This document shows positions 1,808-15,815 of a stretch of DNA of 64,000 bases, in pieces. The DNA is taken from NCBI RefSeq assembly GCF_004135585.1, contig NZ_CP035501.1, forward strand, positions 3,729,501 through 3,793,500, in the 5' to 3' direction. Within the stretch, counting starts at the first letter, position 1. The number at the start of each line of letters is the position of its first letter. Source of the DNA: Sphingosinicella sp. BN140058 (GTDB lineage Bacteria; Pseudomonadota; Alphaproteobacteria; Sphingomonadales; Sphingomonadaceae). The notes under the pieces are model-generated. The model worked only from the letters and a program-made list of their open reading frames with translations, had not been told where the DNA came from and ran no database searches. The position numbers were made by a program, and so were the translations under genes.

Positions 1808-1959
1808 CGGAGCCTTATAGAGACAATGCGGCGGCAAGGCGCCTCGAATGCACGTGCGCGCGACGCATTACTTCTTCTCACGGCTGCAGCGACGGAAGAT
1901 CCTTTGCCGGACCGGCGGGCGACGCGGCATCACGCCGGAAACCTTGAAGGGGAGTGACG

Positions 1960-2814
1960 ATGCGAAACATGATCCTGGCTTTGGTGCTGCTCGGGAGCGG
2001 CATGTCGACCGCGGCGTCGGCACAGGGCAGCCGACAGCGGGTCGAATGGAATCGGCCGATGGCGCCGTTCCGGATCGCCGGCAATGTTCATTATGTCGGC
2101 ACCAAGGGGCTAGGCGCCTATCTGATCACCGATCCGAAGGGCCATGTGCTGATCGACGGCGGCCTTCCGGAGAGTGCTCCGCTGATCGCCGCCAATATCC
2201 GCGCACTCGGCTTCGATCTGCGCGACGTCAGATATCTGCTGATCAACCACGCGCATTTCGATCATTCCGGGGGTCTTGCCGAACTGAAGCGGCTGTCCGG
2301 CGCTAGGCTCGTCGCCAGTGCCGGCGATCGTGCCGATCTCGAGAGCGGGCAGGTCGCCGGGCGTCCGGAGCTGCCGTCGGCGCCCCCGGTCAAGGTCGAT
2401 CGAGTCGTCGGCGATGGCGAACAGCTTCGCCTTGGTGCTACCGTGCTGACTGCCAACCTGACGCCGGGCCACACGCGCGGCTGCACGAGCTGGTCGATGC
2501 GAACCGACGCCGGAACGATCCTGTTCGCCTGCAGTCTCACCGTCGCCGGGCAGAATCTGATCGACGATCCCGTCTACCCGAATGCGGCCGACGATTTTCG
2601 CGCCACCTACGCGAAGCTGAAGGGCATGAAGGCCGACATCTTCGTCAACTTCCATCCCGAATTCTTCGATCTGGAAGGCAAGCGTGCCCGCCAGCAGGCG
2701 GGTGACGGTGATGCCTTCGTCGATCCCGGTGCGCTCCAGCGCCAGATCGCAAGCGCCGAACGCGGCTTCGAAAAGGAACTCGCCGCCCAGCGCGCTCAGC
2801 GCACCAGCCGGTAG
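1960..2814 (+). CDS. Subclass B3 metallo-beta-lactamase
   Basis: A 284-residue secreted protein: signal peptide ending near ASAQG, then the metallo-beta-lactamase fold. The zinc ligands of subclass B3 are all visible: HAHFDH (residues 97-102, giving H116, H118, D120 and H121 in standard numbering), the histidine of TPGHTRGCTSW (H196) and the histidine of VNFHPEFFDLEGK (H263). Position 221 lies in ACSLTV, as in B3 enzymes that lack a cysteine ligand there. I chose the ATG at 1960 because AAGGGGAG ends five bases before it; a GTG at 1954 is in frame. It is predicted to hydrolyse beta-lactams in the periplasm, although some B3-like proteins act on other substrates. The 3' end overlaps the convergent PD40 gene by 19 bases. 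Confidence 0.88.
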   Translation: MRNMILALVLLGSGMSTAASAQGSRQRVEWNRPMAPFRIAGNVHYVGTKGLGAYLITDPKGHVLIDGGLPESAPLIAANIRALGFDLRDVRYLLINHAHFDHSGGLAELKRLSGARLVASAGDRADLESGQVAGRPELPSAPPVKVDRVVGDGEQLRLGATVLTANLTPGHTRGCTSWSMRTDAGTILFACSLTVAGQNLIDDPVYPNAADDFRATYAKLKGMKADIFVNFHPEFFDLEGKRARQQAGDGDAFVDPGALQRQIASAERGFEKELAAQRAQRTSR

Positions 2815-4325
2815 CTGACGAAGGCGATCTGCTTGCCGTCGGGGGACCAGGAGGGCACGTTGATCGTGCCCTGACCGCCGAACAATGTGGTCAGCACCCG
2901 CGGTGGCGCGCTGCCGTCCACGGGCATGATGCGCAGCACGACGTCGCGATTAGGCGGGTGGTCGCCGAGCTCGACGTCGAGGCCGAAGGAGATGAAGACG
3001 ATCCATTTCCCGTCGGGGGATAAATGCGGGAACCAGTCGCGCCACGCCGGATCCCTAGTCACTGGCTGCGGATTGCCGCCGTCGGCATCGATCCGCCAGA
3101 TCTGCATCGCGCCGGACCGCGCCGAGTTGAAATAGATGTGGCGCCCATCGGGGGAATATTCGGGTCCGTCGTCAAGCCCCTTGGCATCGGTCAGCCGCCG
3201 TTCGGGCCCGCCGGCGAGGTCCCGGGCGTAGATGTCGAAGTCGTTCGTGTCCGGCCGTGTCGCCGTATAGGCGATGGTACGTCCGTCGGGAGACCAGCCG
3301 TGCCAGTAGGACGGAGTCGAAGGGTGGCTCGCAACCAGACGCGGCGCCTTCGATCCGCCGACCGGAAGCACGTAGATGCGGGAATGATCGTCCGCCTCCG
3401 ACTGATCGGAAATGGCGAGCATCGTGCCGTCGGGCGACAAGCCGTGGTCATTGTTGTTCTTGCGCTGCGGCCCGGTCTCGATCGGCGCCGGTTCGCCGCC
3501 GGTCGGCGGAATGCGATAGAGCAGACCCTTGCTGTTGTAGATCAGCCACTTGCCGTCGCGAGTCCAGTTCGGCGCTTCGATCTTGCCGTCGAAATGGTGG
3601 ACGACCCGCCGGCCTTCGGCACCGGTCAGGTCCATGATCTCAAGCGTGCTCTCGACCGCGGCCGGATAGCCGGTGTCGGGCACGTGGGCGAGCTTCGGCA
3701 CGTGCAGCGTGACGTTGGTGAAGGACGCGGTCTCGGTGACCTTGTCGTCATGGGCGGATACGGCGAGGCCGGCGAGATAGGGTTCGGCGAAGCGGATCCG
3801 GTAATTGCCGCCGCCATGACGGAAGATCCCGTCCGGTCCGGCGACCGAGAAGAAGACATAGTCGCCCTCCCGCTCCAGCCGCAGGCGCCCGGCGCCGGTG
3901 ACGTTGGCGCGGATCTCGTGGGTCGGGCCGTCCTGCACGTCCCGATATTGAAGTGAGACGAGGCCGTCGCCGTGCAGCATCAGATCGGCATAAGGCGATC
4001 CCGGAGACTCGTTCTGGCGGATCATCGGACCGGCCTTGCGATGCGGATCCTTGCCCTTGCCGAGAAAGGCGACGTCCGCCTCGATGTGGAGATCGCCGGA
4101 ACGCTTGGTCCACACGTAACGGAAGGCATCGGCGCTGCCCCAGATGTTGGCACCGCCGCCGGTGATCCGAAAGGCACACGACGGCTCCCGCACTGCCGCA
4201 CCGGCCACGGCGACCCTTCCGATATCGGCCGAGCGCTCGAACGGCGCCAGACCCTGCGCCGCGGCCGCTCCGGCCGTGCCGGCGAGGAGCAGGGCGAGGC
4301 CGCCGTGCAAAAGCCTGATACGCAT
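2796..4325 (-). CDS. Secreted TolB/PD40 beta-propeller protein with N-terminal lectin-like domain
   Basis: A 509-residue protein with a signal peptide (MRIRLLHGGLALLLAGTAGA). Residues about 40-225 resemble a DUF1349/concanavalin-like beta-sandwich. Residues 240-505 contain repeated propeller blades with PD40 motifs: LSPDGTMLAI, WSPDGRTIAYT, YSPDGRHIYFN, LSPDGKWIVFI and WSPDGKQIAFV. Such proteins are usually periplasmic and bind peptides, glycans or partner proteins. The ATG at 4325 follows a good GGGGAG site. It lies 60 bases downstream of the serine hydrolase gene on the same strand, so it may be the last gene of the scavenging operon. No catalytic residues are evident. Confidence 0.8.
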   Translation of the reverse strand: MRIRLLHGGLALLLAGTAGAAAAQGLAPFERSADIGRVAVAGAAVREPSCAFRITGGGANIWGSADAFRYVWTKRSGDLHIEADVAFLGKGKDPHRKAGPMIRQNESPGSPYADLMLHGDGLVSLQYRDVQDGPTHEIRANVTGAGRLRLEREGDYVFFSVAGPDGIFRHGGGNYRIRFAEPYLAGLAVSAHDDKVTETASFTNVTLHVPKLAHVPDTGYPAAVESTLEIMDLTGAEGRRVVHHFDGKIEAPNWTRDGKWLIYNSKGLLYRIPPTGGEPAPIETGPQRKNNNDHGLSPDGTMLAISDQSEADDHSRIYVLPVGGSKAPRLVASHPSTPSYWHGWSPDGRTIAYTATRPDTNDFDIYARDLAGGPERRLTDAKGLDDGPEYSPDGRHIYFNSARSGAMQIWRIDADGGNPQPVTRDPAWRDWFPHLSPDGKWIVFISFGLDVELGDHPPNRDVVLRIMPVDGSAPPRVLTTLFGGQGTINVPSWSPDGKQIAFVSYRLVR

Positions 4326-4385
4326 CTCGTCTCCCCTGCCTTTGCTCGGCACGCTAACGGCGATCGCTAGCGGAGGCGAGTGGGA

Positions 4386-5948
4386 TCAGGGCGCCGGCGT
4401 GAAGTTGAGGTCGCGATAATCGTAGCTGAAGTCGGCGATCGGAGAGACCGGCTGCATCGTGATCCGAGCCACCTTGCCCTCGGCGTCGAGGGCGAAGGTG
4501 ACGTAAGCGGGCTCGACCACCGGATCGTTGAAGCGCGTCTTGAACGTGTCGTACTGATGATGCTCGAGCGTCGCCGCGAGCCCCGGCCAGTGCGGGAAAT
4601 CGATGGCGAGCTTGCCGTCCTGCTCGCGGATCCTGATCGTGCCGAACCAGGGATCCTGATAGGCGCCCGCATAAGCGGAGAGCGGCAACGACGGCCCGAC
4701 CTTCGCCGGCTGCGCCGCCGGCGTCTGCAGGAAGGCGATCGCCTCCTTCTGGCGGGCGTCGAGAAAGGCAGTGAACGCCTCCGGCCATTTGCCGCGAGGG
4801 CGGCCGAGATAATGGTCGAGCAGCTCGTAGGTGAGGCCGGCGAGCATGCCCGATTCCTCGCTGTTCATCATGATCGAGAAGCCGACATTCTTCTCGGGGA
4901 TCAGCACCACCTGGGTGATCGATCCGAACACGCCGCCGCCATGAAGGACGATCTTGGCGCCGTGATAGTCGCGCACGTTCCAGCCGAGCGCATAGGTGCT
5001 GAAATTCGCCTGCGTCTGCCGGATCGGCTCGGGCCAGGGGCTGATCGGCATCAGCACCTGCGGAGTCCACATCTCCTTGGCCTGCACGTCGCTGAACAGG
5101 CGCGCCTCGCCGGGAAGGTCGCCATGGGCAAGCTGAAGCGCCAGCCACTTGCTCATGTCGTTGGCGCTCACCGACATGCCGCCCGCCGGCGCCGCAACCG
5201 CCGGGATCACCGCTTCTGGGCCGAGCGGCTCCTGATCGCCCGAACCGCGGATCGGACCGTTAAGCCGGGCATGCGGCCGGGCGATGTTGCCGGCGGCCGC
5301 ACGTCCGGGAATGTCGACCGTGGTGCGCATCATGCCGGCCGGGCGCAGGACGTTCTGGATCATGAACTGCTCCCAGCTCGATCCGCTTACCTCCTCGATC
5401 AGCTGGCCGGCGACGACATAGAGGACGTTGTCATAGGCGTAGGCGCTGCGGAAGCTGGTCGCAGGCGGGATGAAGCGGAGTCGTCGGACGATCTCCTTGC
5501 GCGCAAGATCGCTGCGGGGCACGAACAGCAGATCGCCCGCGCCGAGGCCGAGGCCGCTGCGGTGAACGAGCAGATCGCGAATGGTGAACTCCCGCGTCAC
5601 CCAGGGATCCCACAGCCGGAAATCGGGCATGTGGTCGATCACCTTGTCGTCCCACTTGATTTTGCCTTGGTCGACGAGGATCGCGAGCGCCGCGGCGGTG
5701 AAGGCCTTGCCGGTCGATCCAGTGAAGAACAGAGTGTCGGCGTCGACCGGTTTGGGTGCGCTGAGATCGGTCACGCCGAAGCCGCGTGCGAAGGTGGTGC
5801 GCCCGTTCTCGACGATGGCGACGACCGCGCCTGGCGTGCCCGAGCTTTTGCGCAAGGCTTCGACCCTTCTCGCGAAATCGGCCGGCGGCGCCGCGGCTGC
5901 GGGTGCGGGGACGAGCAGGACGAGACACAAAGCAAGCGTGCGGATCAT
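4386..5948 (-). CDS. Secreted serine hydrolase, beta-lactamase/penicillin-binding fold (class C-like)
   Basis: A 520-residue protein with a signal peptide (MIRTLALCLVLLVPAPAAAA). Active-site motifs of the serine beta-lactamase/D-aminopeptidase superfamily are present: S78-T-G-K81 (SxxK), Y172-D-N174 (YxN) and HGGG in place of KTG. A C-terminal domain of about 110 residues follows. The ATG overlaps the TGA of the permease gene by one base (TGATG) and has GGAGG upstream, which indicates translational coupling. Beside a D-amino-acid acetyltransferase and an epimerase, a role in releasing amino acids or peptides containing D-residues in the periplasm is an inference. An esterase or true beta-lactamase activity is also possible. 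Confidence 0.85.
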   Translation of the reverse strand: MIRTLALCLVLLVPAPAAAAPPADFARRVEALRKSSGTPGAVVAIVENGRTTFARGFGVTDLSAPKPVDADTLFFTGSTGKAFTAAALAILVDQGKIKWDDKVIDHMPDFRLWDPWVTREFTIRDLLVHRSGLGLGAGDLLFVPRSDLARKEIVRRLRFIPPATSFRSAYAYDNVLYVVAGQLIEEVSGSSWEQFMIQNVLRPAGMMRTTVDIPGRAAAGNIARPHARLNGPIRGSGDQEPLGPEAVIPAVAAPAGGMSVSANDMSKWLALQLAHGDLPGEARLFSDVQAKEMWTPQVLMPISPWPEPIRQTQANFSTYALGWNVRDYHGAKIVLHGGGVFGSITQVVLIPEKNVGFSIMMNSEESGMLAGLTYELLDHYLGRPRGKWPEAFTAFLDARQKEAIAFLQTPAAQPAKVGPSLPLSAYAGAYQDPWFGTIRIREQDGKLAIDFPHWPGLAATLEHHQYDTFKTRFNDPVVEPAYVTFALDAEGKVARITMQPVSPIADFSYDYRDLNFTPAP

Positions 5949-7054
5949 CAGGACCTCCTGACCAGACGGGCGGTGCCGAGGGTGAGCAGCGGCAGGACGA
6001 AGACGGCGAGCATCAGCCAGGCGAGCGCCCGGTAGCCGCCGGCGATGAGCGAGACGAGGCCGAAGCGCCCCGCCAGCAGCATGCAGCCGGCGAGCAGGAC
6101 GAGGGCGAGGACGAGCCGGGCCTGCGCTCCGAGCGGCGTGCCCCGGCGGCGCTGCCAGACCGCGTCGATCCGCTCGTTGATCGCATGGACGGCGCTGGCG
6201 CCGCTCTCGAGCAGAGCCGAGAAGATCATCGCCTGGAAAAGGAGCTGGAAGAGCGGCAGGTTCATCCGCGCGAGCAGGAAATCGGAGGGGAGGGTGGCAC
6301 TTGCCACCTCCGGATAGAAGGCCACCATCGCGGTGAGGAACAGCAGGCCGGGCAGCATCGCCAGCGGCCCGCAGATCGCGCCAGCGATCACCGCGTCGCG
6401 ATTGCTGGTGAGGTGCCGCAGCACCGGCAGGATGACCACGGCGCCGATGATGTTGTAGCTCGCATAGGTGGCACCGCCGAGCGCCCACCCGTCCATCGGC
6501 GCGTGGACGGCGAAGCCCTCGCCGATGCGATCGCCGAAGCGGACGAAGGCGAGCAGCACGAACAGGGCGTAGATGCCGTAGAGCAGGTACGAGACCCAGG
6601 CGAACAGCCGCTCGACCGCCTTGTTGCCGAAGGTCACGAACAGGATGATCCCCGCCATCAGCACGAGCGTGCCGGCGATCGCCGGGAGGCCGAGCAGGGC
6701 CTCGCCGATCGCTCCCGCGGCAGCCCCGTAGACGGCGAGGATCAGGATCACGAAGAGGATGTAGACAGCTTCGAAGGCGACCCAGCCCGGGCCGAGCAGC
6801 GCCTTGAAGAAGCTCCCGTAATCGCGAGCGGCAGTGGCGCGGGCGAACAGGAAGGTGACGATGCAGACCAGGCTGAACAGGACGGTCGCGAGCAGCATTC
6901 CGGCAAGTGCCCCGGCGGGGCCGCTCGGAAGGAAGAATTCGGCGAGTTCCCGGCCGGTCGCATAGCCGCCACCGATCACCACCGCCTTGAAGGCGAGGCC
7001 CGGCAGCAGCCAGCGCTGGAACCGGGTCGGCGGCGCGGCGGAGCCTTCCGTCAT
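5948..7054 (-). CDS. YkvI-like inner-membrane permease
   Basis: A 368-residue hydrophobic protein with about ten predicted membrane segments. The N-terminus GLAFKAVVIGGGYATGRE matches the uncharacterised YkvI family (COG3949), related to the APC amino-acid transporters. The ATG at 7054 overlaps the TGA of dgcN in an ATGA junction. The 3' end overlaps the hydrolase start by one base, so the three genes form a tight operon. The context suggests that it moves an amino acid, plausibly D-glutamate or an N-acetyl derivative, across the inner membrane. No transport substrate is established for the family as far as I know. Confidence 0.8.
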   Translation of the reverse strand: MTEGSAAPPTRFQRWLLPGLAFKAVVIGGGYATGRELAEFFLPSGPAGALAGMLLATVLFSLVCIVTFLFARATAARDYGSFFKALLGPGWVAFEAVYILFVILILAVYGAAAGAIGEALLGLPAIAGTLVLMAGIILFVTFGNKAVERLFAWVSYLLYGIYALFVLLAFVRFGDRIGEGFAVHAPMDGWALGGATYASYNIIGAVVILPVLRHLTSNRDAVIAGAICGPLAMLPGLLFLTAMVAFYPEVASATLPSDFLLARMNLPLFQLLFQAMIFSALLESGASAVHAINERIDAVWQRRRGTPLGAQARLVLALVLLAGCMLLAGRFGLVSLIAGGYRALAWLMLAVFVLPLLTLGTARLVRRS

Positions 7055-8124
7055 GGCGCGAGGCACTGATCGAGCAGCCGCTCGAACCGCGGCCCGCCGC
7101 GCATCGGATCGGCGACTGGGAGCCCGAGTCGATCCGCCTCCCCGTCGAGCAGGATCGCGGCATCCTCGTCAGACAGCCTGGCGGTGTTGATCGTCACGCC
7201 GCCGCAGCGTATCGCCGGATTGGTGCGGCGCCCCAACGTCCGGGTCAGCGCGATCACCTCTTCCAGATCCGGCAAGGCAAATCCTGGCGTACCCAGAATG
7301 GCCGCGCGGCCAGCCTCGTGGCAGGCGATGAACATATCGGGCTGGCTGCCGTGAAGAAGCGCGAGCGAGACGCCGGCATAAGCGGGGTGGAAGAGCGAGC
7401 CCTGGCCCTCGATCACGTCCCAATGGTCAGGAGCGGCATCGGGGCTCAGCATCTCGGCCGCGCCGGCGGCGAAATCGGCGATCACCGCGTCCATCGGAAT
7501 TCCGCTGCCCGAGATCATGATCCCGGTCTGGCCGGTGGCGCGGAAATCGACGTCGAGGCCGCGCGCCCGCATACCCCGTGCGATGGCCAGCGCGCTATAC
7601 TTCTTGCCGAGGGCGCAGTCGGTGCCGACGGTCAGCAGGCGCTTGCCGCTGCGCTTGCGCCCGGTCGCGATCGGGATCGTGGCGGGCGGCGAGCGGACGT
7701 CGATCAGCCGCCGGCCGAAACGCGCAGCCGCTTCGGCGAGATCCGGCAGGCTGGCGAGGCGGACGTGCATGCCGCTGACGATGTCGAGCCCCGCCGCGAG
7801 CGCCTCGACCAGCGATGCGCGCCAGTGCGCCGGAATGACTCCGCCGCTGTTCGCGACACCGATCACCAGCGCGCGCGCACCCTTGGCGTGTGCGGCGGCG
7901 GGCCGCATGTGCGGCAGCCCGGTGCTGACCGCATCCGGCGAGCAGGCGAACTCGCCGATGCACTTGTCCCGGGCCCAGTCGCGCAGCCCGAAGGCGGTCT
8001 TGGCGAAACCCGGCTCGATCGTGTCGCCCAGGAACAGAAGGTAGGGCTGGGGAAGCGCCAGCGCGCCGAGCGCTGGGTGGACCGCGTTCCCCGGGGTCGC
8101 CGTGTCGATACGATTGTGGTTCAC
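7051..8124 (-). CDS. dgcN: DgcN-type N-acetyltransferase (DUF1611 family)
   Basis: A 357-residue protein of the DUF1611 family. It has a Rossmann-like N-terminal half and a P-loop-like segment LLTVGTDCALGKKYSALAIA near residue 155. Conserved pieces include TGQTGIMISGSGIPMDAV and VIEGQGSLFHPAY. DgcN proteins acetylate D-glutamate in the D-Glu catabolic route (DgcN then DgcA) reported from marine proteobacteria and haloarchaea. A DgcA-like epimerase gene lies in the same cluster. The start is a GTG at 8124 with AGGGAAG upstream. The gene couples to the permease by a four-base overlap. It lies 55 bases downstream of the TonB receptor and is probably cotranscribed with it. Confidence 0.8.
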   Translation of the reverse strand: MNHNRIDTATPGNAVHPALGALALPQPYLLFLGDTIEPGFAKTAFGLRDWARDKCIGEFACSPDAVSTGLPHMRPAAAHAKGARALVIGVANSGGVIPAHWRASLVEALAAGLDIVSGMHVRLASLPDLAEAAARFGRRLIDVRSPPATIPIATGRKRSGKRLLTVGTDCALGKKYSALAIARGMRARGLDVDFRATGQTGIMISGSGIPMDAVIADFAAGAAEMLSPDAAPDHWDVIEGQGSLFHPAYAGVSLALLHGSQPDMFIACHEAGRAAILGTPGFALPDLEEVIALTRTLGRRTNPAIRCGGVTINTARLSDEDAAILLDGEADRLGLPVADPMRGGPRFERLLDQCLAP

Positions 8125-8179
8125 GCGCTACTTCCCTGCCGGCGAGAGATGGACGGCCGCTGCCGCGGTGTCCCTCGGT

Positions 8180-10441
8180 TCAGAATTCGGCACCCAGCGA
8201 CATGCCGAACGTGCGCGGCCGGATCACGCCGGTGCCGATCGCGCCTCCCGGATAGAGAGGAAAGCCGCCGAACACGTCGGTGCCCGTGGTCGAGGTACGC
8301 CCGTGGCTGTTGCCGAGGTTGCGGACGAAGGCGTCCACGGAGAAGCGCCCGAAATCGACGCCTGCGCGCAGGTCTATTACGTCGTAGGCCTCAACGCGGC
8401 GTTGCCGCCCGTTCTCGGTGCGGAACGCAGTGTCGAAGCTGCCGGACTGGCTCGAGACGTGGCGCAAGGAGCCGCCGATGCGGGCCGTGGCATCGTTGCC
8501 GACCGCCCATTTGTAGTCGGCGTTGAGCGAGGCGCTGAACTTGGGCGTGAACGGTAGTCTGTCCCCGTCGAGACCGCCGATTTCGGTGTCGGTGGTCAGC
8601 CGGGCGTTGGTGTAGGCGCCGTTCACGGACAGCGAGAGACCGGGGGTCGGATTGATCCGGGCGGAGAGTTCCGCGCCGTCGACCTTGGCACCGCCGCCAT
8701 TGGCGTTGAAATTAAAGCCATCCTGGGTTGCGAGCAACTGGATGTCCTTCCAGTCGATGTGGAACAGCGCGATGTCGAGGCCGAAGACGCGATCGGCGCT
8801 CTGCATCTTCAAGCCAGCCTCGTAGCTGATCACCGAATCGGAATCGTAGCTGCCGAACTCGGCGGGAGCTCCCGGAGGCAGGACGTTGGGCCCGCCGGGA
8901 CGGAAGCCCTTGGCAATTCGGGCGTAGATCGAAGCATCGTCGCTGAGCGCGAAGCGTGGCGCGACCGAATAGGTGAACACGTCCTCCTTCGATCGGATGT
9001 TGCCGAAATCGTTCGCGCCGCCGACCAATATGCCGTCGGTCAGCTGGTGAGCCTTCTGCTTGTTGCTGCTGTAGCGGCCGCCGACATCGATCTCGAAGCG
9101 GTCCGTCAGGTGCCAGGTGACGTCGGCAAACACGGCAATTTCGCGATAGTCCGATTCCACCCGCGCGAAGCCGATCAGCGGCAGGCCTGCGATCGGCGTC
9201 GTCGATCCTGGGGTTGCGGCAATGAAGTCCTGAAGGATGAGGCCGTCTTCGCTGGTGTAATAGGCACCGACCAGCCAGTCGGCCACCTTGCTCTCGCCCG
9301 AGAGCCGAAGCTCCTGGGTGAACTTCTTGGAATCGGTCCTCTGCGCCTGGAAGAACTCGTTCGGCACGCCCAGAAGCGCTTCGATCAGCGGCGACAGAGC
9401 GAAGCTGTAGTCCGTCTGCAGTTTCTGCTTCTGGGTCGCGTAGCTGGTCGACGAGGTCAGCTCGCCGAACCCGAGGTCCAGCGTCCCGGTGGCGTTGTAG
9501 ACGCGATAGCGCAGATCGCTGAACGTGGGCACGAACTGAGCTTGCGTGAGCCTGCCGTACAGCGTGTCGAGCGTGTCCGGATCGCTCTCGACCAGCGACG
9601 CTGCGTCCGCCTTGATATTCTGGGCCACGGCGGTCAGGCGTAGATTGAAGGTTTCGGAGGGTTTGATCAGGAGCGAGGCGCGGCCGCCATAGATTTCGGC
9701 ATCGTTGATGTTCTTGTCGACATCCGAGCCGCCGGTTCCGATCGAGTCGATGAAGCCGCCCTCCCGCCGATAGGTACCCGACGCACGAAAGGCGACGCTG
9801 TCGGACAAGGGAATGTTGACGACAAGATTGCCGCGGTAGCTGGCATCGCCGCCATCCGAGGTCTCGATCCCCGCCCGTGTCCGAACCTCGATCCGGTCGG
9901 TGGAAGGCGCGCGCGTGACGAATTTGAGCACGCCGCTCAAGGAACTCGCGCCATAGAAGGTGCCTTGCGGACCGCGAAGGACCTCGATCCGGTCGAGATC
10001 GAACGTGTCGAAGTCGCCGGCGAGCACGGCCGCGTTGACCAGGCCGCTGCTCGATCCGAAGGGCGTCTCGTCCATGTAGACGCCCACGGTGGAAGCGACG
10101 CCCTCGGTATTGACGCCGCGGATGATCAGGCGCGCCTGGCCCTGTCGGCTCTCGTCCAGCTGCAGTCCGGGGACGAGCTTGAGATAATCGGCGAAGCTGT
10201 CGGCTTGCTGGCCCTCGAGCGTCGCGCCCGACACGACCGAGATCGATTGCGGAACCTCGATCAGCGCCTGTTCCCGCCGCTGCGCGGTCACGATGATTTC
10301 CTCATCGGAACCACCTGCATCTCGCGCGACCTGGTCTCGCGTGGCCGGCGTCTCCTGCGCCGCCGCGGCGCCGGTGACGAGCGAGGTTGCGGCAGAGGCG
10401 GCAAGCGCCCAGCGCATCGTCAAGGATTTGGACCTCGTCAT
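8180..10441 (-). CDS. TonB-dependent outer-membrane receptor
   Basis: A 753-residue receptor: signal peptide, a short TonB-box region near EEIIVTAQRR, the plug domain (about residues 55-165, with VPQSISVVSG and VLRGPQGTFYG), then a 22-strand barrel ending in the aromatic tail GMSLGAEF. No FecA-type signalling extension is present. It starts at 10441 after a purine-rich stretch. It lies downstream of its own intergenic region carrying the operator-like sequence at 10597-10642. The cluster contents suggest that it imports peptides or muropeptide-like ligands rather than a siderophore; this is inference from neighbours. Confidence 0.9.
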   Translation of the reverse strand: MTRSKSLTMRWALAASAATSLVTGAAAAQETPATRDQVARDAGGSDEEIIVTAQRREQALIEVPQSISVVSGATLEGQQADSFADYLKLVPGLQLDESRQGQARLIIRGVNTEGVASTVGVYMDETPFGSSSGLVNAAVLAGDFDTFDLDRIEVLRGPQGTFYGASSLSGVLKFVTRAPSTDRIEVRTRAGIETSDGGDASYRGNLVVNIPLSDSVAFRASGTYRREGGFIDSIGTGGSDVDKNINDAEIYGGRASLLIKPSETFNLRLTAVAQNIKADAASLVESDPDTLDTLYGRLTQAQFVPTFSDLRYRVYNATGTLDLGFGELTSSTSYATQKQKLQTDYSFALSPLIEALLGVPNEFFQAQRTDSKKFTQELRLSGESKVADWLVGAYYTSEDGLILQDFIAATPGSTTPIAGLPLIGFARVESDYREIAVFADVTWHLTDRFEIDVGGRYSSNKQKAHQLTDGILVGGANDFGNIRSKEDVFTYSVAPRFALSDDASIYARIAKGFRPGGPNVLPPGAPAEFGSYDSDSVISYEAGLKMQSADRVFGLDIALFHIDWKDIQLLATQDGFNFNANGGGAKVDGAELSARINPTPGLSLSVNGAYTNARLTTDTEIGGLDGDRLPFTPKFSASLNADYKWAVGNDATARIGGSLRHVSSQSGSFDTAFRTENGRQRRVEAYDVIDLRAGVDFGRFSVDAFVRNLGNSHGRTSTTGTDVFGGFPLYPGGAIGTGVIRPRTFGMSLGAEF

Positions 10442-10638
10442 TCCCCCAGTCCTTTCTTGTCGAGAGCCGCCGCGAAGCGGCCGCTATGATTGATCCGGGT
10501 TCCTGACGCAGCGTGGAAGGCGCTCTTGCTCCGCAACATTTTGCAGATCGGCCGAGATTGCGCCACTCTGATCCACATTTTCCGATCCCGGGATTGTATG
10601 TCCTGATCCGGACAGTAGCTACCTAATCGGAAATATTG
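10442..10638 (-). promoter_or_regulatory. Control region of the TonB receptor-dgcN operon with operator-like sequence
   Basis: This gap separates the POT transporter stop from the receptor start. It contains TATGTCCTGATC (10597-10608), whose reverse complement GATCAGGACATA also occurs exactly at 15074-15085 before the XRE-cupin gene. Further on, CCTAATCGGAAATATTGTCA (10622-10641) resembles CCTGATTAGAAAAATGTCA in the same arrangement at 15091-15109. TGTCC and GGACA form an inverted pair (10599-10603 and 10610-10614). The reuse of two motif halves suggests binding by one regulator, most simply the XRE-cupin protein. Confidence 0.55.
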
Positions 10639-11961
10639 TCAAGAGGCTCGGAGCCCCGCCTGCGGATCGAGGTCGTTCTCCAGTTCGCGAGCTGCGACCA
10701 CCGCGCGTGCCGGACGATCGATCAGCAGCAACAGAAAGGCGGCGACCGTCGCGATGACGGTGAGCAGCAGAAAGTAGGCACTGTGCCCGAGCCGGCTCCA
10801 CAGGGTGCCGACCAGCCCGGCGGCCAGGCTGCCGGCGAAGATCGCAAGGTACCATGCGGCGACGGTGGTGGCGCCGAAGCGCGGCGGTGCAAGTCGGGCG
10901 AACAGGCCTAGCCCGTTCGGCAGGATGAACAATTCGCCCACCGTAAACACGAGGAAGAAGCCGGCGAGCCAGACCCAGCTGGCCCGGCCTTCGCCTGCGA
11001 ACCCGGCGGCGACCGCCAGCAGCAGGTAGGCGCCGGCGACGATCAGCGCACCTATGGCCATTTTCTGCAGTGGCGAATGCTCACGGGCGGCGGCAGCGCG
11101 GCGCTGCCAATAAGCGAGCAGAAAGGGCGTGATCGCAATCACCAGCAGCGGGTTCAAAGACTGGAACCAGGTCATCGGAATGGTCAGGTTGCCGAGGCTG
11201 CGGTCGATGCCGCTGTCGGCCCACAAAGCGACCGTATTGCCGACCTGCTCGTAGGCACCGCGGAAGACGGTGACGGCAAGGCCGATGGCAAGCAGCACGC
11301 CGTAGGCCCGGCGGCTGTCCGAGCGAATGCGTTGCGTCTGCGCAGCCGCAGGTTCGAAGCGCCGTTCCGGCGGCAGATAGCGACTTCCGGCGAGATAGAT
11401 GATCAAGCCGGCGAGCATGCCGAAGCCGGCTGCGGCGAAGCCGTAATGCCAGCCATAGACCTCGCCGAGGGTGCCGCAGACCAGAGGCGCCAGGAAGCCG
11501 CCGACGTTCACGCCGACATAATAGACGTTGTACGCCCAGGGGCGGCGCGGGTCGTCGGCATGGTAGAGGTCGTTGATCTGGCTTGGCAGGGTCGGCAGGA
11601 ACAGGCCGTTGCCGAGCGCGATCGTCGCGAGTGCGACGTAGAAAGTCGCCTCGAACGTCATCAGGAAATGGCCGAGCGCCATCACGCTGGCGCCGATCAC
11701 CACTGCCTTCTTCTTGCCCAGCCATCGGTCGGCGATCGCTCCGCCGATGATCGGCGTGAAATAGGCGAAGGCGGTGTAGGTGCCGTAGAGGAAGGACGCC
11801 GCCTGCTGCTCGATCAGCAGGCTCTTGGTCATGTAATAGACCAGCAGCGCCCGCATGCCGAAATAGGAGAATTGCTCCCACATGTTGGTGAGGAACAGGA
11901 TGGTCAGGCCGCGTGGCTGTCCGAACCAACTGCCGGGCTCGGCGGGGCCGGTGCCGCTCAT
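10639..11961 (-). CDS. POT/PTR2-family proton-dependent peptide transporter
   Basis: A 440-residue transporter with about 12 membrane segments. The signature NMWEQFSYFGMRALLVYYM corresponds to the ExxERFxYYG region of proton-coupled oligopeptide transporters. YYVGVNVGGFLAPLV matches the PTR2 signature around helix 4. It is somewhat shorter than DtpA, which has two extra helices. The start ATG at 11961 overlaps the epimerase stop in an ATGA junction. POT proteins import di- and tripeptides, which fits a cluster with a dipeptide epimerase. Its 3' end touches the operator-like sequence of the receptor operon. Confidence 0.88.
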   Translation of the reverse strand: MSGTGPAEPGSWFGQPRGLTILFLTNMWEQFSYFGMRALLVYYMTKSLLIEQQAASFLYGTYTAFAYFTPIIGGAIADRWLGKKKAVVIGASVMALGHFLMTFEATFYVALATIALGNGLFLPTLPSQINDLYHADDPRRPWAYNVYYVGVNVGGFLAPLVCGTLGEVYGWHYGFAAAGFGMLAGLIIYLAGSRYLPPERRFEPAAAQTQRIRSDSRRAYGVLLAIGLAVTVFRGAYEQVGNTVALWADSGIDRSLGNLTIPMTWFQSLNPLLVIAITPFLLAYWQRRAAAAREHSPLQKMAIGALIVAGAYLLLAVAAGFAGEGRASWVWLAGFFLVFTVGELFILPNGLGLFARLAPPRFGATTVAAWYLAIFAGSLAAGLVGTLWSRLGHSAYFLLLTVIATVAAFLLLLIDRPARAVVAARELENDLDPQAGLRAS

Positions 11962-12968
11962 GCCGTCTGCATCGCTCCGGCGCCCCACACCGCCTCGTCG
12001 CACCAGATCGTGCCGTCCTGATAGCGCACGGAAGGTTGGCGGTCGCGCTCCAGGAAGGTCGGGCCGTCCAGATCGACGACATCGCATTGCTGACCGAGCA
12101 GGAAGGCCGGTGCCATGGCGAGGCTGGTGCCGACCATGTTGCCGACCATGACGCCGAGGCCGAGTTCGCGTGCCCGGGCAGCCATCGCCAGGCCCTCGGT
12201 CAGGCCGCCGCATTTGTCGAGCTTGATATTGGCCACCTGAAAACGGCCGACGAGCCGTTCGATGTCGTCGAGCGTCAGTACGCTTTCGTCGGCGGCGATC
12301 GGGATCGGCGAGGCAAAGCCTTCGAGATCGGCCTCACGCCCGCGCCTCAGTGGCTGCTCCAGCAAGGCGACGTCCGCATCGAGCAAGCCGGCAACGAGCG
12401 AGTCGAGCGTGTCGCGGCCGAAGCCCTGATTGGCGTCGACGCCGAGCCAGACGTCGGGACGCGCTGCGCGGATCGCCTTGACCCGGGCAAGATCGAGCTC
12501 GAGCTCGCCCGTCAGCTTGACCTTGATGGCCTTGGCCGTGGCATAATCACGTGCGCCTTCCGCCATGACAGCGGGATCGTCGGCCCCGAGGGTAAAGGTG
12601 GTGACCAGCGGCCGGCGTTCTTCGATCCCCGCGATCCACCACGCCGGACGTCCGGTCCGTCTCGCCTCCAGCTCCCACAACGCGCAATCGATCGCGTTGC
12701 GGGCGCCGCCGGGTGGCATCAATGCCTGCAGCGCGTGACGGTCGACGCCGCTTTCCAAAGCGCTCCGGTGTGCCTCGATCGTGTCGATGATGTGGGCGGC
12801 ATCGTCGCCCGTATAATAGACGCCGGCGGCCTCGCCCCGCCCGAGATGATCGTCCTCCGTCAGAGTGGCGACGATCACCTGGGCGCTCTCGAACACATAG
12901 CCCGAGATGCGGAAGGGCGCAGCGAGGCGGAGACGCTCGGAGCGAACCTCTAATGCCCGGCGCGGCAT
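11958..12968 (-). CDS. dgcA: Dipeptide epimerase / DgcA-type racemase (enolase superfamily)
   Basis: A 336-residue member of the muconate-lactonizing-enzyme group. Active-site motifs are in the expected order: IKVKLTGE (the KxK base), GVDANQG and LEQPL (metal ligands), AADES (third metal ligand), and NIKLDKCGG (the opposing lysine). This matches L-Ala-D/L-Glu epimerases that act on peptidoglycan dipeptides, and also DgcA, which racemises N-acetyl-D-Glu. The presence of dgcN favours the DgcA role, while the POT transporter fits dipeptide epimerisation; both are possible. The ATG at 12968 shares one base with the hydrolase stop (TGATG). Confidence 0.82.
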   Translation of the reverse strand: MPRRALEVRSERLRLAAPFRISGYVFESAQVIVATLTEDDHLGRGEAAGVYYTGDDAAHIIDTIEAHRSALESGVDRHALQALMPPGGARNAIDCALWELEARRTGRPAWWIAGIEERRPLVTTFTLGADDPAVMAEGARDYATAKAIKVKLTGELELDLARVKAIRAARPDVWLGVDANQGFGRDTLDSLVAGLLDADVALLEQPLRRGREADLEGFASPIPIAADESVLTLDDIERLVGRFQVANIKLDKCGGLTEGLAMAARARELGLGVMVGNMVGTSLAMAPAFLLGQQCDVVDLDGPTFLERDRQPSVRYQDGTIWCDEAVWGAGAMQTA

Positions 12969-14989
12969 CAGTAGTTCGCGCCGAGTGCGATCAGGTGGAA
13001 GGCGAGGCCGAGCCACAACGCGACGATCGCCGCGAGCAGCAAGGCCACACTCCAGACCTTCGCCGGCCAGCGGCGACCGCCGCGCCATGTCACCCAGACG
13101 TTCCAGGCGAGGACCAGGAACCCGCCGATAAGCGCGAGGATGGTGAAGATCTGGAGGAGCCAGATGATGGGGTCGGTCGCGGCGCTGAGATTGACGATGT
13201 CGCCCATCATCACCGTGATCGCCGCGGCCCAGCCCACGAGCGCGAGCAAAATCGCCAGTGCCGCGAGCCGGCTATACAGGTGGGCACGGCGCAGCGGCCC
13301 TTCGAGCGCGAGCTTGGCGCCGAAATGGCGGCGAACGAGGGCGCGCACCGGCCACAGCAGGACGGTCAGCAACAGGATCACGATGCTGGCGATCAGCAAC
13401 GGGGTCAGCAACGCCGAATTCTGGTACCAGGGCGCACGATCGAACATCATGAACGGCAGACCGCTCAGGCTGAAGCGGACGATCTTGCCGTCGACCACCT
13501 TGGCGGCGAGCTGCTCGTGGCTGTTGAGATCGTTCCACAGGAAGGGCTCGACTTCGACCCAGACCCGCGGCTGGCCGTTGAGGCCCATCGTGACCGGAAC
13601 GATCGGGCGACCATCCTTGTCGAGACCGACCGAAGTCTGGCCGAGCAGGCTGGTCAGGCTGAGGAAGCTCGAATGCGATCCGCGCGAGTTGATCCAATTG
13701 CCGGTCAGCATCCGCGCATGCTCGGCCGCGACCTCCGGCGGCACGCGGCGCGTGTCCTTGCGCGCGGCGGGCAGGTAGCGATCGGCAAACTCCTCGAAGA
13801 AGGCGTTGCGTATGTCGCCGGCAGCGCCGTCTCGGCCGATGCTGTTCATCGAGATGTAGATGCCGACCTTGTCGTCGGTGAACAGGTGCACGTCCGAATG
13901 GAAGGCGATGGTGTCGCCGCCATGAGCGATCGCCTTGTGGCCGTTGATGTTGGTCTCGTAGAAGCCGAGCAGCATGCGGTTGAGGTGCGGCAGAATGGTG
14001 TTGGCGGTGTTGTGCATCGTCCGCGCCGTTTCCAGACGGAGAATTCCGGCACCATCATTGAGGTGGGCGATCATGAACTTGGCCATGTCGGCGCCCGTCG
14101 TCGAAAGCGCGCCCGCCGGCGCTGGGCCGATGATCTCGAAGGGCACGATCTCTCCCGAGGCCTGCTGGTACCCGGTCGCCATCATCGGACGCAGGCGCGG
14201 CGGCAGCGGCTGGTCGAAGCTGGAATGGGTCATGCCAAGCGGTGTGAAGATGTGTCGCTGGACATAAGTGTTGAACGGCTCGCCCGAGACCCGCTGGACG
14301 ATATAGCCGGCGAGCGACGTCGCATAGTTTGAGTAAGCGGGCGTCGTCCCGGCCGGATAGACCCGCTCGGGCACCCATTGCTTCAGCAAGGCTTCATAAG
14401 CTGGAACACGGTCGCGGTCGTAGCCGATGATCGATTTCACCTGCTCTTCGAAGCCGGCCGTGTGGGTCATGATGTTGCGGAGCGTGACCGGCTTGCCCTC
14501 CAGCGGAGGAATCTTGAAGTCGAGATAGGTGTTCACGTCGGCGTCGAGGTTCAGCCGGCCCTGTTCGACCAGCTGCATGACCGCGGTCCAGGTGAACAAT
14601 TTGGAAATCGAGCCCGGACGGAACAGAGTTCCTGCCGGGTCGACCGGTTTGCGCTTGGCCACGTCGGCGAAGCCGTATCCGCGCTGGGTCAGTACCTGCC
14701 CATCGCGGACCACCACCACCACCGCACCGGCGACATCGCCCTTGCCAAGGGCATAAGGCATGAAGCCGTCGAGCCAGGCGTTGACGTCCTGGCCGGTGAG
14801 GTTCGGAATCGCCGCCGTCTGCGGCTGTGCGGTTGCAGCCGCAACGGCACCCTGATCCGCTCGCTCGGTCGATACGCGCGGTCCAAGCGGCTGGATCTGC
14901 TGCGCAGCTGCGGTGACGCCGATCATGGCGAGAAGGGCGACGATCATCGCCATGGCGCGACGTGCGGTGACAGGCAGGCGGAAGTGCAT
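12968..14989 (-). CDS. Serine hydrolase (beta-lactamase fold) with C-terminal membrane domain
   Basis: A 673-residue protein. After a signal peptide or anchor (MAMIVALLAMIGVTAAA), the hydrolase domain shows S127-I-S-K130 (SxxK), YSNY (YxN) near residue 217 and HGGD near 330. A linker follows, and then four or five hydrophobic helices occupy roughly the last 160 residues, so the catalytic domain should face the periplasm. The same layout occurs in membrane-bound serine hydrolases of unknown substrate. The ATG at 14989 has GGGGAG about ten bases upstream; a GTG at 15025 is a weaker alternative. It is the first gene of the epimerase-POT operon and is divergent from the XRE-cupin regulator. Confidence 0.83.
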   Translation of the reverse strand: MHFRLPVTARRAMAMIVALLAMIGVTAAAQQIQPLGPRVSTERADQGAVAAATAQPQTAAIPNLTGQDVNAWLDGFMPYALGKGDVAGAVVVVVRDGQVLTQRGYGFADVAKRKPVDPAGTLFRPGSISKLFTWTAVMQLVEQGRLNLDADVNTYLDFKIPPLEGKPVTLRNIMTHTAGFEEQVKSIIGYDRDRVPAYEALLKQWVPERVYPAGTTPAYSNYATSLAGYIVQRVSGEPFNTYVQRHIFTPLGMTHSSFDQPLPPRLRPMMATGYQQASGEIVPFEIIGPAPAGALSTTGADMAKFMIAHLNDGAGILRLETARTMHNTANTILPHLNRMLLGFYETNINGHKAIAHGGDTIAFHSDVHLFTDDKVGIYISMNSIGRDGAAGDIRNAFFEEFADRYLPAARKDTRRVPPEVAAEHARMLTGNWINSRGSHSSFLSLTSLLGQTSVGLDKDGRPIVPVTMGLNGQPRVWVEVEPFLWNDLNSHEQLAAKVVDGKIVRFSLSGLPFMMFDRAPWYQNSALLTPLLIASIVILLLTVLLWPVRALVRRHFGAKLALEGPLRRAHLYSRLAALAILLALVGWAAAITVMMGDIVNLSAATDPIIWLLQIFTILALIGGFLVLAWNVWVTWRGGRRWPAKVWSVALLLAAIVALWLGLAFHLIALGANY

Positions 14990-15122
14990 GCGACGTGCTC
15001 CCCGTTGATCGCGCTGGTTTGCCACGCCGGCCGTGCCGGACTATTGTTCACCTGAGACCGCGACCTATATGCTGATCAGGACATAATGATCCTGATTAGA
15101 AAAATGTCAAACGAGAGATTCG
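14990..15122. promoter_or_regulatory. Divergent control region with inverted repeat, likely XRE-cupin operator
   Basis: Between the divergent hydrolase and regulator genes is a perfect inverted repeat, ATCAGGA (15075-15081) and TCCTGAT (15090-15096), separated by eight bases. It is followed by an AT-rich GTCAA tail. GATCAGGACATA (15074-15085) recurs exactly, reversed, before the TonB receptor. An XRE regulator binding here would control itself and the hydrolase operon. Confidence 0.6.
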
Positions 15123-15815
15123 ATGGCAAAATCGGAACAGCCGACGCTCGGCAAGGTGCTGAAGGGTCTACGCGCCCGGCATGACTGGACCCTGCGCGAG
15201 ATGAGCGAGCGCAGCGGCATTCCGGTGTCGACCCTGTCCAAGGTCGAGCATGACCGGCTGACGCTGACCTATGACAAGCTTCTGCAGCTCAGCCAGCGAT
15301 TGGGACTCCGGATCTCCGACCTGTTCGCCGAGCCCGCCGGGCAGGCTGAGCCGCCGGTCACCGCTCGCCGCAGCATCGGCAGCCTCGATCGCGCGGTCCA
15401 GGTGACCACCCCCAATTACGATTATCATTATCTCTGTCCGGAGCTGCGCCGCAAACGCATGGTGCCGATCATCACCATCATCCGCGCAAAGACGGTGGAG
15501 CAGTTCGGCGAACTCGTCCGTCATCCCGGCGAGGAATATATCCACGTGCTCGAAGGACGGATCGAGGTGCACACCGAATTCTACGATCCCGTGGTGCTGG
15601 ATAAGGGTGAATCGATCTACATCGATTCGAACATGGGCCATGCCTACATCGTCGCCGAGAGCTGTGACGAGGCGACGGTGCTTGGAGTCTGTTCGAGCGC
15701 CGACGAGAGCCTGATGAATTCGCTGATGAGCCTGCACGCGCCCGCAGCCTCGAACGAGGATGGCGGGGAGGCGCCTTCGGGGGGCAGGGTCAGGAAGGCG
15801 CGCGCCACCATATAA
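15123..15815 (+). CDS. XRE-family regulator with C-terminal cupin domain
   Basis: A 230-residue protein. Residues 8-68 form an XRE helix-turn-helix (LRARHDWTLREMSERSGIP, then STLSKVEHDRLTLTYDKLL). Residues about 125-190 form a cupin (RHPGEEYIHVLEGRIEVH and GESIYIDSNMGHAYIV). Regulators of this class (for example PuuR) sense small metabolites through the cupin, often amino acids or polyamines. It is transcribed away from the peptide/D-amino-acid cluster, and the shared operator sequences make it the likely local regulator. The sequence does not show whether it represses or activates, or which ligand it binds. Confidence 0.88.
   Translation: MAKSEQPTLGKVLKGLRARHDWTLREMSERSGIPVSTLSKVEHDRLTLTYDKLLQLSQRLGLRISDLFAEPAGQAEPPVTARRSIGSLDRAVQVTTPNYDYHYLCPELRRKRMVPIITIIRAKTVEQFGELVRHPGEEYIHVLEGRIEVHTEFYDPVVLDKGESIYIDSNMGHAYIVAESCDEATVLGVCSSADESLMNSLMSLHAPAASNEDGGEAPSGGRVRKARATI

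Follow-up and report, generated by a model that had tools for sequence, protein, structure and literature searches.

We analyzed a window of 64,000 nucleotides (nt) from Sphingosinicella sp. BN140058 (contig NZ_CP035501.1, positions 3,729,501 to 3,793,500), in which nine neighboring genes (2796-15815) encode an XRE-cupin regulator, two S12 serine hydrolases (SH1 and SH2), a TonB-dependent receptor, transporters of the POT and YkvI families, a PD40 protein and a DgcN-like/DgcA-like enzyme pair. We propose that this cluster is an inducible nutrient locus for D-amino-acid peptides, whose central pair would be directed not at D-glutamate but at a D residue of non-acidic type (hydrophobic, small or amide), a reading to which we assign a probability of roughly 55%. 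Its components differ in strength. The locus is almost certainly a conserved, co-regulated unit. Judged by its sequence features, the pair with good probability does not prefer glutamate, and it is rather likely that the locus would serve peptides containing D residues. Among the non-acidic options, a hydrophobic residue is our tentative choice over a small one or an amide, with somewhat less than even chances. The first-pass annotation of this DNA had interpreted the genes as a scavenging system for D-glutamate and muropeptides. Scavenging as such is retained here, as it agrees with the predicted receptor, hydrolases, permeases, D-to-L conversion and dedicated regulator, which are co-conserved in Sphingomonadales and beyond; the two targets are not retained.

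D-glutamate is disfavored already by the scores of the pair. The DgcN-like protein reached 442.6 bits with the NCBIfam model NF041892 (cut-off 480) and the DgcA-like protein 373.5 bits with NF042940 (cut-off 400), while a second, adjacent dgcN-dgcA pair of canonical type, located elsewhere in the genome (C1:1409897 and 1410892; span 1409897-1411857, L113), exceeded both cut-offs with 494.4 and 424.5 bits. A gene of the Amidohydro_3 family, which we take to be D-aminoacylase-like, adjoins this canonical pair. For comparisons, the window DgcN was scanned against named bacterial genomes and the best 80 of at least 555 relatives were kept; 21 stretches of 20 kb around canonical dgcN (from the same genome and from 20 family genomes, chosen from 45 above the cut-off) served as controls. 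In a midpoint-rooted DgcN tree with 18 rows from these 21 loci (three are missing), the canonical proteins were separated from the window type. The midpoint split had a support of 0.68-0.83 and the inner window clade of 0.99-0.999; one row of the window group, L046_win1, grouped with canonical DgcN. Three arginines of DgcN, R51, R230 and R277, occur in 20, 21 and 21 of the 21 canonical proteins, whereas the window group mostly contains A, A and L (80, 80 and 75 of 83 rows) and keeps all three only in the second, canonical-type copy of L046. The solved DgcN relative 7xrj, aligned over residues 25-352, possesses R at positions 51 and 277 and N at 230.

The epimerase differs still more clearly. 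The window DgcA clade has lost three cationic loop residues, including the arginine which we assume to bind glutamate. Positions were read in 69 relatives' rows from 67 of the 80 loci (the L068 row ends before them) and in the 21 canonical loci. At the position of the window's Gly23, all 69 relatives have Gly and all 21 canonical proteins Arg; at F26, F or I (69/69) faces K or R (21/21), and at Y52, Y or F (69/69) faces R (21/21). The 20s and 50s loops are known specificity loops of the enolase superfamily; in the L-Ala-D/L-Glu epimerases of E. coli and B. subtilis, we take the side chain of glutamate to be bound by the 20s-loop arginine, at the position of Gly23. The cationic residues are present in E. 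coli 1jpd and in 4gfi; E. faecalis 3jva lacks them and has a 50s loop similar to that of the window protein. KxK, the metal ligands, the second Lys and DxD, which we regard as the functional residues of the dipeptide epimerase fold, are all present in the DgcA-like protein, and its structure model (predicted local distance difference test, pLDDT, 93.9) has dipeptide epimerases among its best structural matches. The DxD motif was also considered as a marker distinguishing dipeptide from N-acyl substrates, but was rejected since canonical DgcA keeps it too (29 rows: DLDGP 28, DCDGP 1). As to the residue, in the accessible part of PMC12363236 the substrates named for the dgcN pathway are acidic D-amino acids and the corresponding amides, so that D-Asn and D-Gln are among the non-acidic candidates.

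DgcN modules may have diversified further. Four genomes (G085, G201, G242 and G253; L142-L159) yielded seven scored DgcN matches each, with 11, 12, 11 and 14 candidates at first look, and where inspected their neighbors differ, as if the modules had radiated to different substrates. Close to more distant DgcN relatives there are epimerases which also lack the arginine and have other loops (L155 PFRITGWTY, L172 PFIITGYQF), perhaps reflecting additional specificities.

Comparison of the neighborhoods confirmed that the genes are co-conserved. Neighbors were counted with curated queries in the 76 loci of at least 15 kb (L053, L071, L090 and L110 are shorter and were excluded), and recurring families were named by a Pfam scan of one member each. 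A core set comprising XRE-cupin, SH1, DgcA-like, DgcN-like and either POT or YkvI was present in 57 of the 76 loci (gammaproteobacteria 16/20, others 2/2, remaining 39/54, as grouped by record title). Carriers belong to Sphingomonadales, to the Lysobacter and Steroidobacter groups and to one metagenome-assembled genome of Chthoniobacterales. Frequencies of the nine genes are given in Table 1. They range from 76 loci for DgcN down to a single one for PD40, which thus lies outside the conserved set. Other neighbors were an M19 dipeptidase (48 loci), the D-aminoacylase-like gene (29), an Lrp regulator (10) and a dehydrogenase of the ELFV (Glu/Leu/Phe/Val) type (9). Around canonical dgcN, SH1, SH2, YkvI, POT and XRE-cupin were absent from all 21 loci, M19 and the window TonB type occurred once each, and the D-aminoacylase-like gene 16 times. 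Two or more S12 genes were found in 63/76 relatives' loci versus 0/21 canonical ones. As the whole genome of 6.07 Mb contains only about 19 S12 genes (21 matches, four being halves of two genes), the enrichment of SH1 and S12 genes points to a clustering beyond chance, although Fisher P values overstate independence because the 76 loci were picked by DgcN similarity and are mutually related.

A second sample was obtained by searching 398 Pseudomonadota genomes with the DgcA alignment, which gave matches at 1e-60 in 127 genomes; 30 loci were kept, and loop residues were read for L169-L172. The three best loci (the window itself and two family genomes already met) lack the arginine and have SH1, M19, POT, TonB or XRE genes adjoining. 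In the fourth the arginine is likewise absent and a DgcN neighbor is present. The other 26 loci revealed, besides DgcN, no gene of the cluster set within flanks of 1.5 kb. The M19 dipeptidase is missing from the window, while it is found in most relatives including the closest one (L033). There are two recurring M19 types, and of four M19 genes elsewhere in the genome one shares 54 percent identity with one type. Furthermore, an ELFV dehydrogenase together with an Lrp-type regulator was observed near the cluster in nine of the 76 loci (L054, L070, L083, L088, L092, L094, L096, L101 and L103).

Co-regulation is indicated by a promoter-operator motif. The sequence TTGACN(6-9)YRATYAGG is common to the promoters of SH1 and of the TonB receptor gene, and with two copies in the window the set reads as two co-regulated units. 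The final pattern derives from two window promoters and four from relatives, and is therefore partly fitted on data later counted; a narrower palindromic pattern matched just 8 of 76 intergenic pieces. In the whole genome it gave seven matches, versus none for the reversed control: the two cluster promoters, one site within the TonB gene but on the opposite strand, and four sites elsewhere. The relatives contain 62 sites in 45 of the 80 loci (0.4 in base shuffles), situated upstream of SH1 (31), TonB (13), M19 (13), DgcN (2), DgcA (1), the D-aminoacylase-like gene (1) or no gene (1), and none occurs in the 21 canonical loci. Since sites are inherited among relatives and the motif was in part drawn from them, the comparison with the canonical loci carries more weight. 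The 13 sites in front of M19 suggest that this gene belongs to the same regulon in relatives. The XRE-cupin protein is the probable ligand of the motif.

SH1 and SH2 both have the SxxK, YxN and HxG motifs as well as the PF00144 domain of S12 enzymes (in SH1, SISK127, YSN219 and HGG356). The structure model of SH1 (pLDDT 88.2) matched, among others, the DL-peptidase Lip3 and a D-amino acid amidase; Lip3 (9sn1; 19 percent identity) is the only one of 50 listed matches that extends to the C-terminal helices. Sequence matches of SH2 include alkaline D-peptidase and ClbP. Muropeptides as target are not supported either; LdcA, NlpC/P60, AmpD and AmpG were not found among the 18 recurring neighbor families, which were scanned by one member each and not searched family by family in every locus.

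From these homologies a course of events can be suggested. The TonB receptor would bring short peptides with D residues into the periplasm, where the membrane-anchored, DL-peptidase-like SH1 and the soluble SH2 would cut them beside the D residue, in most relatives probably assisted by the M19 dipeptidase. POT and the YkvI-type carrier would import the small products, whose D residue the DgcN-like and DgcA-like proteins may invert to L, either by the logic known from D-Glu, i.e., N-acylation, racemization of the N-acyl amino acid and deacylation, or by direct epimerization of a dipeptide. The XRE-cupin protein would sense a product and control both promoters. An extension of this scheme, which we regard as speculative and rather unlikely as a whole, is that such loci feed on nonribosomal peptides and lipopeptides of other microbes in a manner resembling polysaccharide utilization loci. 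Receptor and S12 peptidases would then differ between copies and determine which peptide is used, the shared DgcN/DgcA-like pair, re-tuned to hydrophobic D residues, would render the mirror-image portion usable, and the seven or more DgcN-type genes of some genomes would serve different peptides.

Several points have to be weighed against a D-peptide locus handling a non-acidic residue. In B. theta 3ijq, which according to its title has L-Ala-D-Glu bound, only the middle cation is left, the first and third being absent, so that losing the first by itself would not decide specificity; the window clade, however, has lost all three. Moreover, cell-wall peptides could be substrates of S12 and class A enzymes. 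Both points would suit D-glutamate/muropeptide scavenging, in which DgcN acetylates D-Glu, DgcA racemizes N-acetyl-D-Glu and the hydrolases trim cell-wall peptides. This appears improbable given that both proteins score below cut-offs which another pair of the same genome surpasses, that the three cations are gone in every relative read, and that the muropeptide families named above were not found among the 18 recurring families scanned. Alternatively, the epimerase might act on free dipeptides and the DgcN-like protein do something other than N-acylation, the locus serving ordinary, only partly D dipeptides. The retained DxD, which we assume binds the dipeptide amino end in dipeptide epimerases, would agree with that, as would POT being a family of di/tripeptide importers; but DxD does not discriminate, and 67 of the 76 DgcN loci also contain a DgcA-like gene, which makes this alternative little probable.

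The cluster might also serve defense in the first place, its S12 enzymes destroying D-residue peptide antibiotics in the periplasm, with uptake and D-to-L conversion disposing of the pieces or reusing them. In the accessible text of PMC9541196, the S12 member BogQ is cited as a D-stereoselective peptidase against nonribosomal peptides, and a Bacillus activity cleaving gramicidin A is reported that is not tied to a gene there; Lip3 and Lip7 are described as cutting a lipopeptide in the part of PMC13188892 available. Beta-lactamase genes are located near some loci (class A in 6/76, B3 beside the window cluster). Receptor, importers and conversion pair under one operator nevertheless fit feeding better than disposal, and efflux or immunity genes were not recognized among the recurring neighbor clusters, inspected partly by eye. 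We therefore give a primarily defensive role a small chance and favor the nutrient locus for D-residue peptides.

All nine genes named by the first-pass annotation were recovered with their families: Pfam found PF00144 twice, MR_MLE, PTR2/POT, TonB receptor with plug, DUF1611 N and C, PD40, and HTH with cupin. The gene at 5948-7066 had no Pfam or NCBIfam match, and is assigned by its relatives; among the best 120 of 5131 listed, many are named YkvI by JGI or NCBI. Eight genes lie on the minus strand, in the order SH1, DgcA-like, POT and, after 197 bp, TonB receptor, DgcN-like, YkvI, SH2 and PD40; the regulator alone is divergent on the plus strand. Overlaps of 1-4 bases had been claimed for most junctions. 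They apply to four of seven (SH1/DgcA 1 bp, DgcA/POT 4 bp, DgcN/YkvI 4 bp if the YkvI ATG is at 7054, YkvI/SH2 1 bp). The remaining three are gaps of 197 bp (POT-TonB, containing the second promoter-operator), 55 bp (TonB-DgcN) and 33 or 60 bp (SH2-PD40, depending on the start).

Table 1. Genes and regulatory elements of the cluster, with the number of relatives' loci possessing each gene.
Feature	Position	Strand	Loci (of 76)	Basis and remarks
XRE-cupin regulator	15123..15815	+	63	HTH_3 and Cupin_2; weak PuuR similarity (43.5 bits, cut-off 211)
Promoter-operator, unit 1 (upstream of SH1)	15075..15110	-		TTGAC box 15110-15106; palindrome ATCAGGA-N8-TCCTGAT 15096-15075
SH1, S12 serine hydrolase with four C-terminal hydrophobic helices	12968..14989	-	65	PF00144
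DgcA-like epimerase/racemase, enolase superfamily, lacking the presumed Glu-binding Arg	11958..12968	-	67	MR_MLE; loop comparison; structure model
POT-family peptide:H+ symporter	10639..11961	-	27	PF00854 158.9 bits; TIGR00924 282 (cut-off 130.2)
Second promoter-operator (POT-TonB gap)	10591..10642	-		TTGAC box 10642-10638, overlapping the POT stop; half-site-like ATCAGGACATACAATCC 10607-10591
TonB-dependent receptor	8180..10441	-	45 (same receptor type)	PF07715 and PF00593
DgcN-like protein (DUF1611)	7051..8124	-	76	NF041892 below cut-off; clade apart from canonical DgcN
YkvI-family membrane transporter	5948..7066 (alternative ATG 7054)	-	58	Names of relatives
SH2, S12 serine hydrolase with DUF3471 and hydrophobic signal-like N terminus	4386..5948	-	50	PF00144
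PD40 beta-propeller protein, accessory	2796..4325	-	1	PD40 domain; signal-like N terminus seen by eye but not flagged by program

Next to the cluster, a subclass B3 metallo-beta-lactamase gene (1954-2814, plus strand; 318.3 bits, cut-off 240) is convergent with the PD40 gene and overlaps its 3' end. It is SPG-1-like, though below the cut-off of the SPG-1 family itself, and also adjoins the cluster in L033. This closest relative among the 80 kept, Sphingomonas deserti GL-C-18, shares three DNA blocks with the window at 76, 83 and 85 percent identity and carries its M19 gene between POT and TonB. DgcA, PD40, SH1, POT, SH2 and DgcN are 83-89 percent identical between the two, whereas the best segments of TonB (56 percent) and YkvI (54-55 percent) are far less so, which points to a swapping of the presumed substrate-selecting parts.

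If the proposed function is correct, the locus provides a genetic handle on D-residue peptides as food in many Sphingomonadales, Lysobacter- and Steroidobacter-type bacteria, and possibly a natural breakdown route for peptide antibiotics and lipopeptides. The DgcN/DgcA pair would then be a wider toolkit than the D-Glu pathway, and dgcN counts in metagenomes may overstate the use of D-Glu. Moreover, the YkvI family, for which the literature search listing showed no function, would obtain a testable role, and the promoter-operator motif could be used to find more such loci.

The DgcN-DgcA catabolic pathway for D-glutamate was reportedly described by Yu et al. in 2023 (ISME J). The window pair shares with it the DUF1611 protein and an enolase-superfamily racemase with KxK and DxD, but differs by scores under both NCBIfam cut-offs, by the missing Arg and two other cationic residues, and by its setting in a hydrolase/transporter locus (SH1, SH2, YkvI, POT, XRE) absent around all 21 canonical pairs. 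Enolase-superfamily dipeptide epimerases (1jpd, 4gfi, 3jva, 3q45, 3rit) have the fold, KxK, metal ligands and DxD in common with the window enzyme, whose specificity loops are unlike the Glu type and which is paired with a DgcN-like gene. In the accessible parts of PMC12363236 and PMC10845958, dgcN is presented as the key gene of D-Glu racemization. SH1 resembles the DL-peptidases Lip3 and Lip7 (Zhang et al. 2026, as told in the available part of PMC13188892; 9sn1) in its S12 fold and in a match range running to the C-terminal helices; these enzymes are, however, only distantly similar and reported there to remodel one lipopeptide. ClbP-type peptidases, as far as PMC9889268 is accessible, likewise combine D-residue chemistry with an S12 domain in the periplasm and membrane helices at its C-terminal side, but ClbP, a prodrug activator that removes N-acyl-D-Asn, has three helices, while SH1 has four hydrophobic ones and its locus looks catabolic. 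For a marine gammaproteobacterium, TonB uptake of N-acyl-D-amino acid derivatives was proposed from the context of a receptor and a D-aminoacylase gene (PMC3400609); this is a single gene pair, and the accessible text does not describe an epimerase pair, S12 enzyme, dipeptidase or operator. A description of the window locus was not found by our literature search, which covered few subscription papers. Thus, what apparently is new about the locus is not its families, which are known, but their conserved and apparently co-regulated combination and an apparently changed specificity of the central pair.

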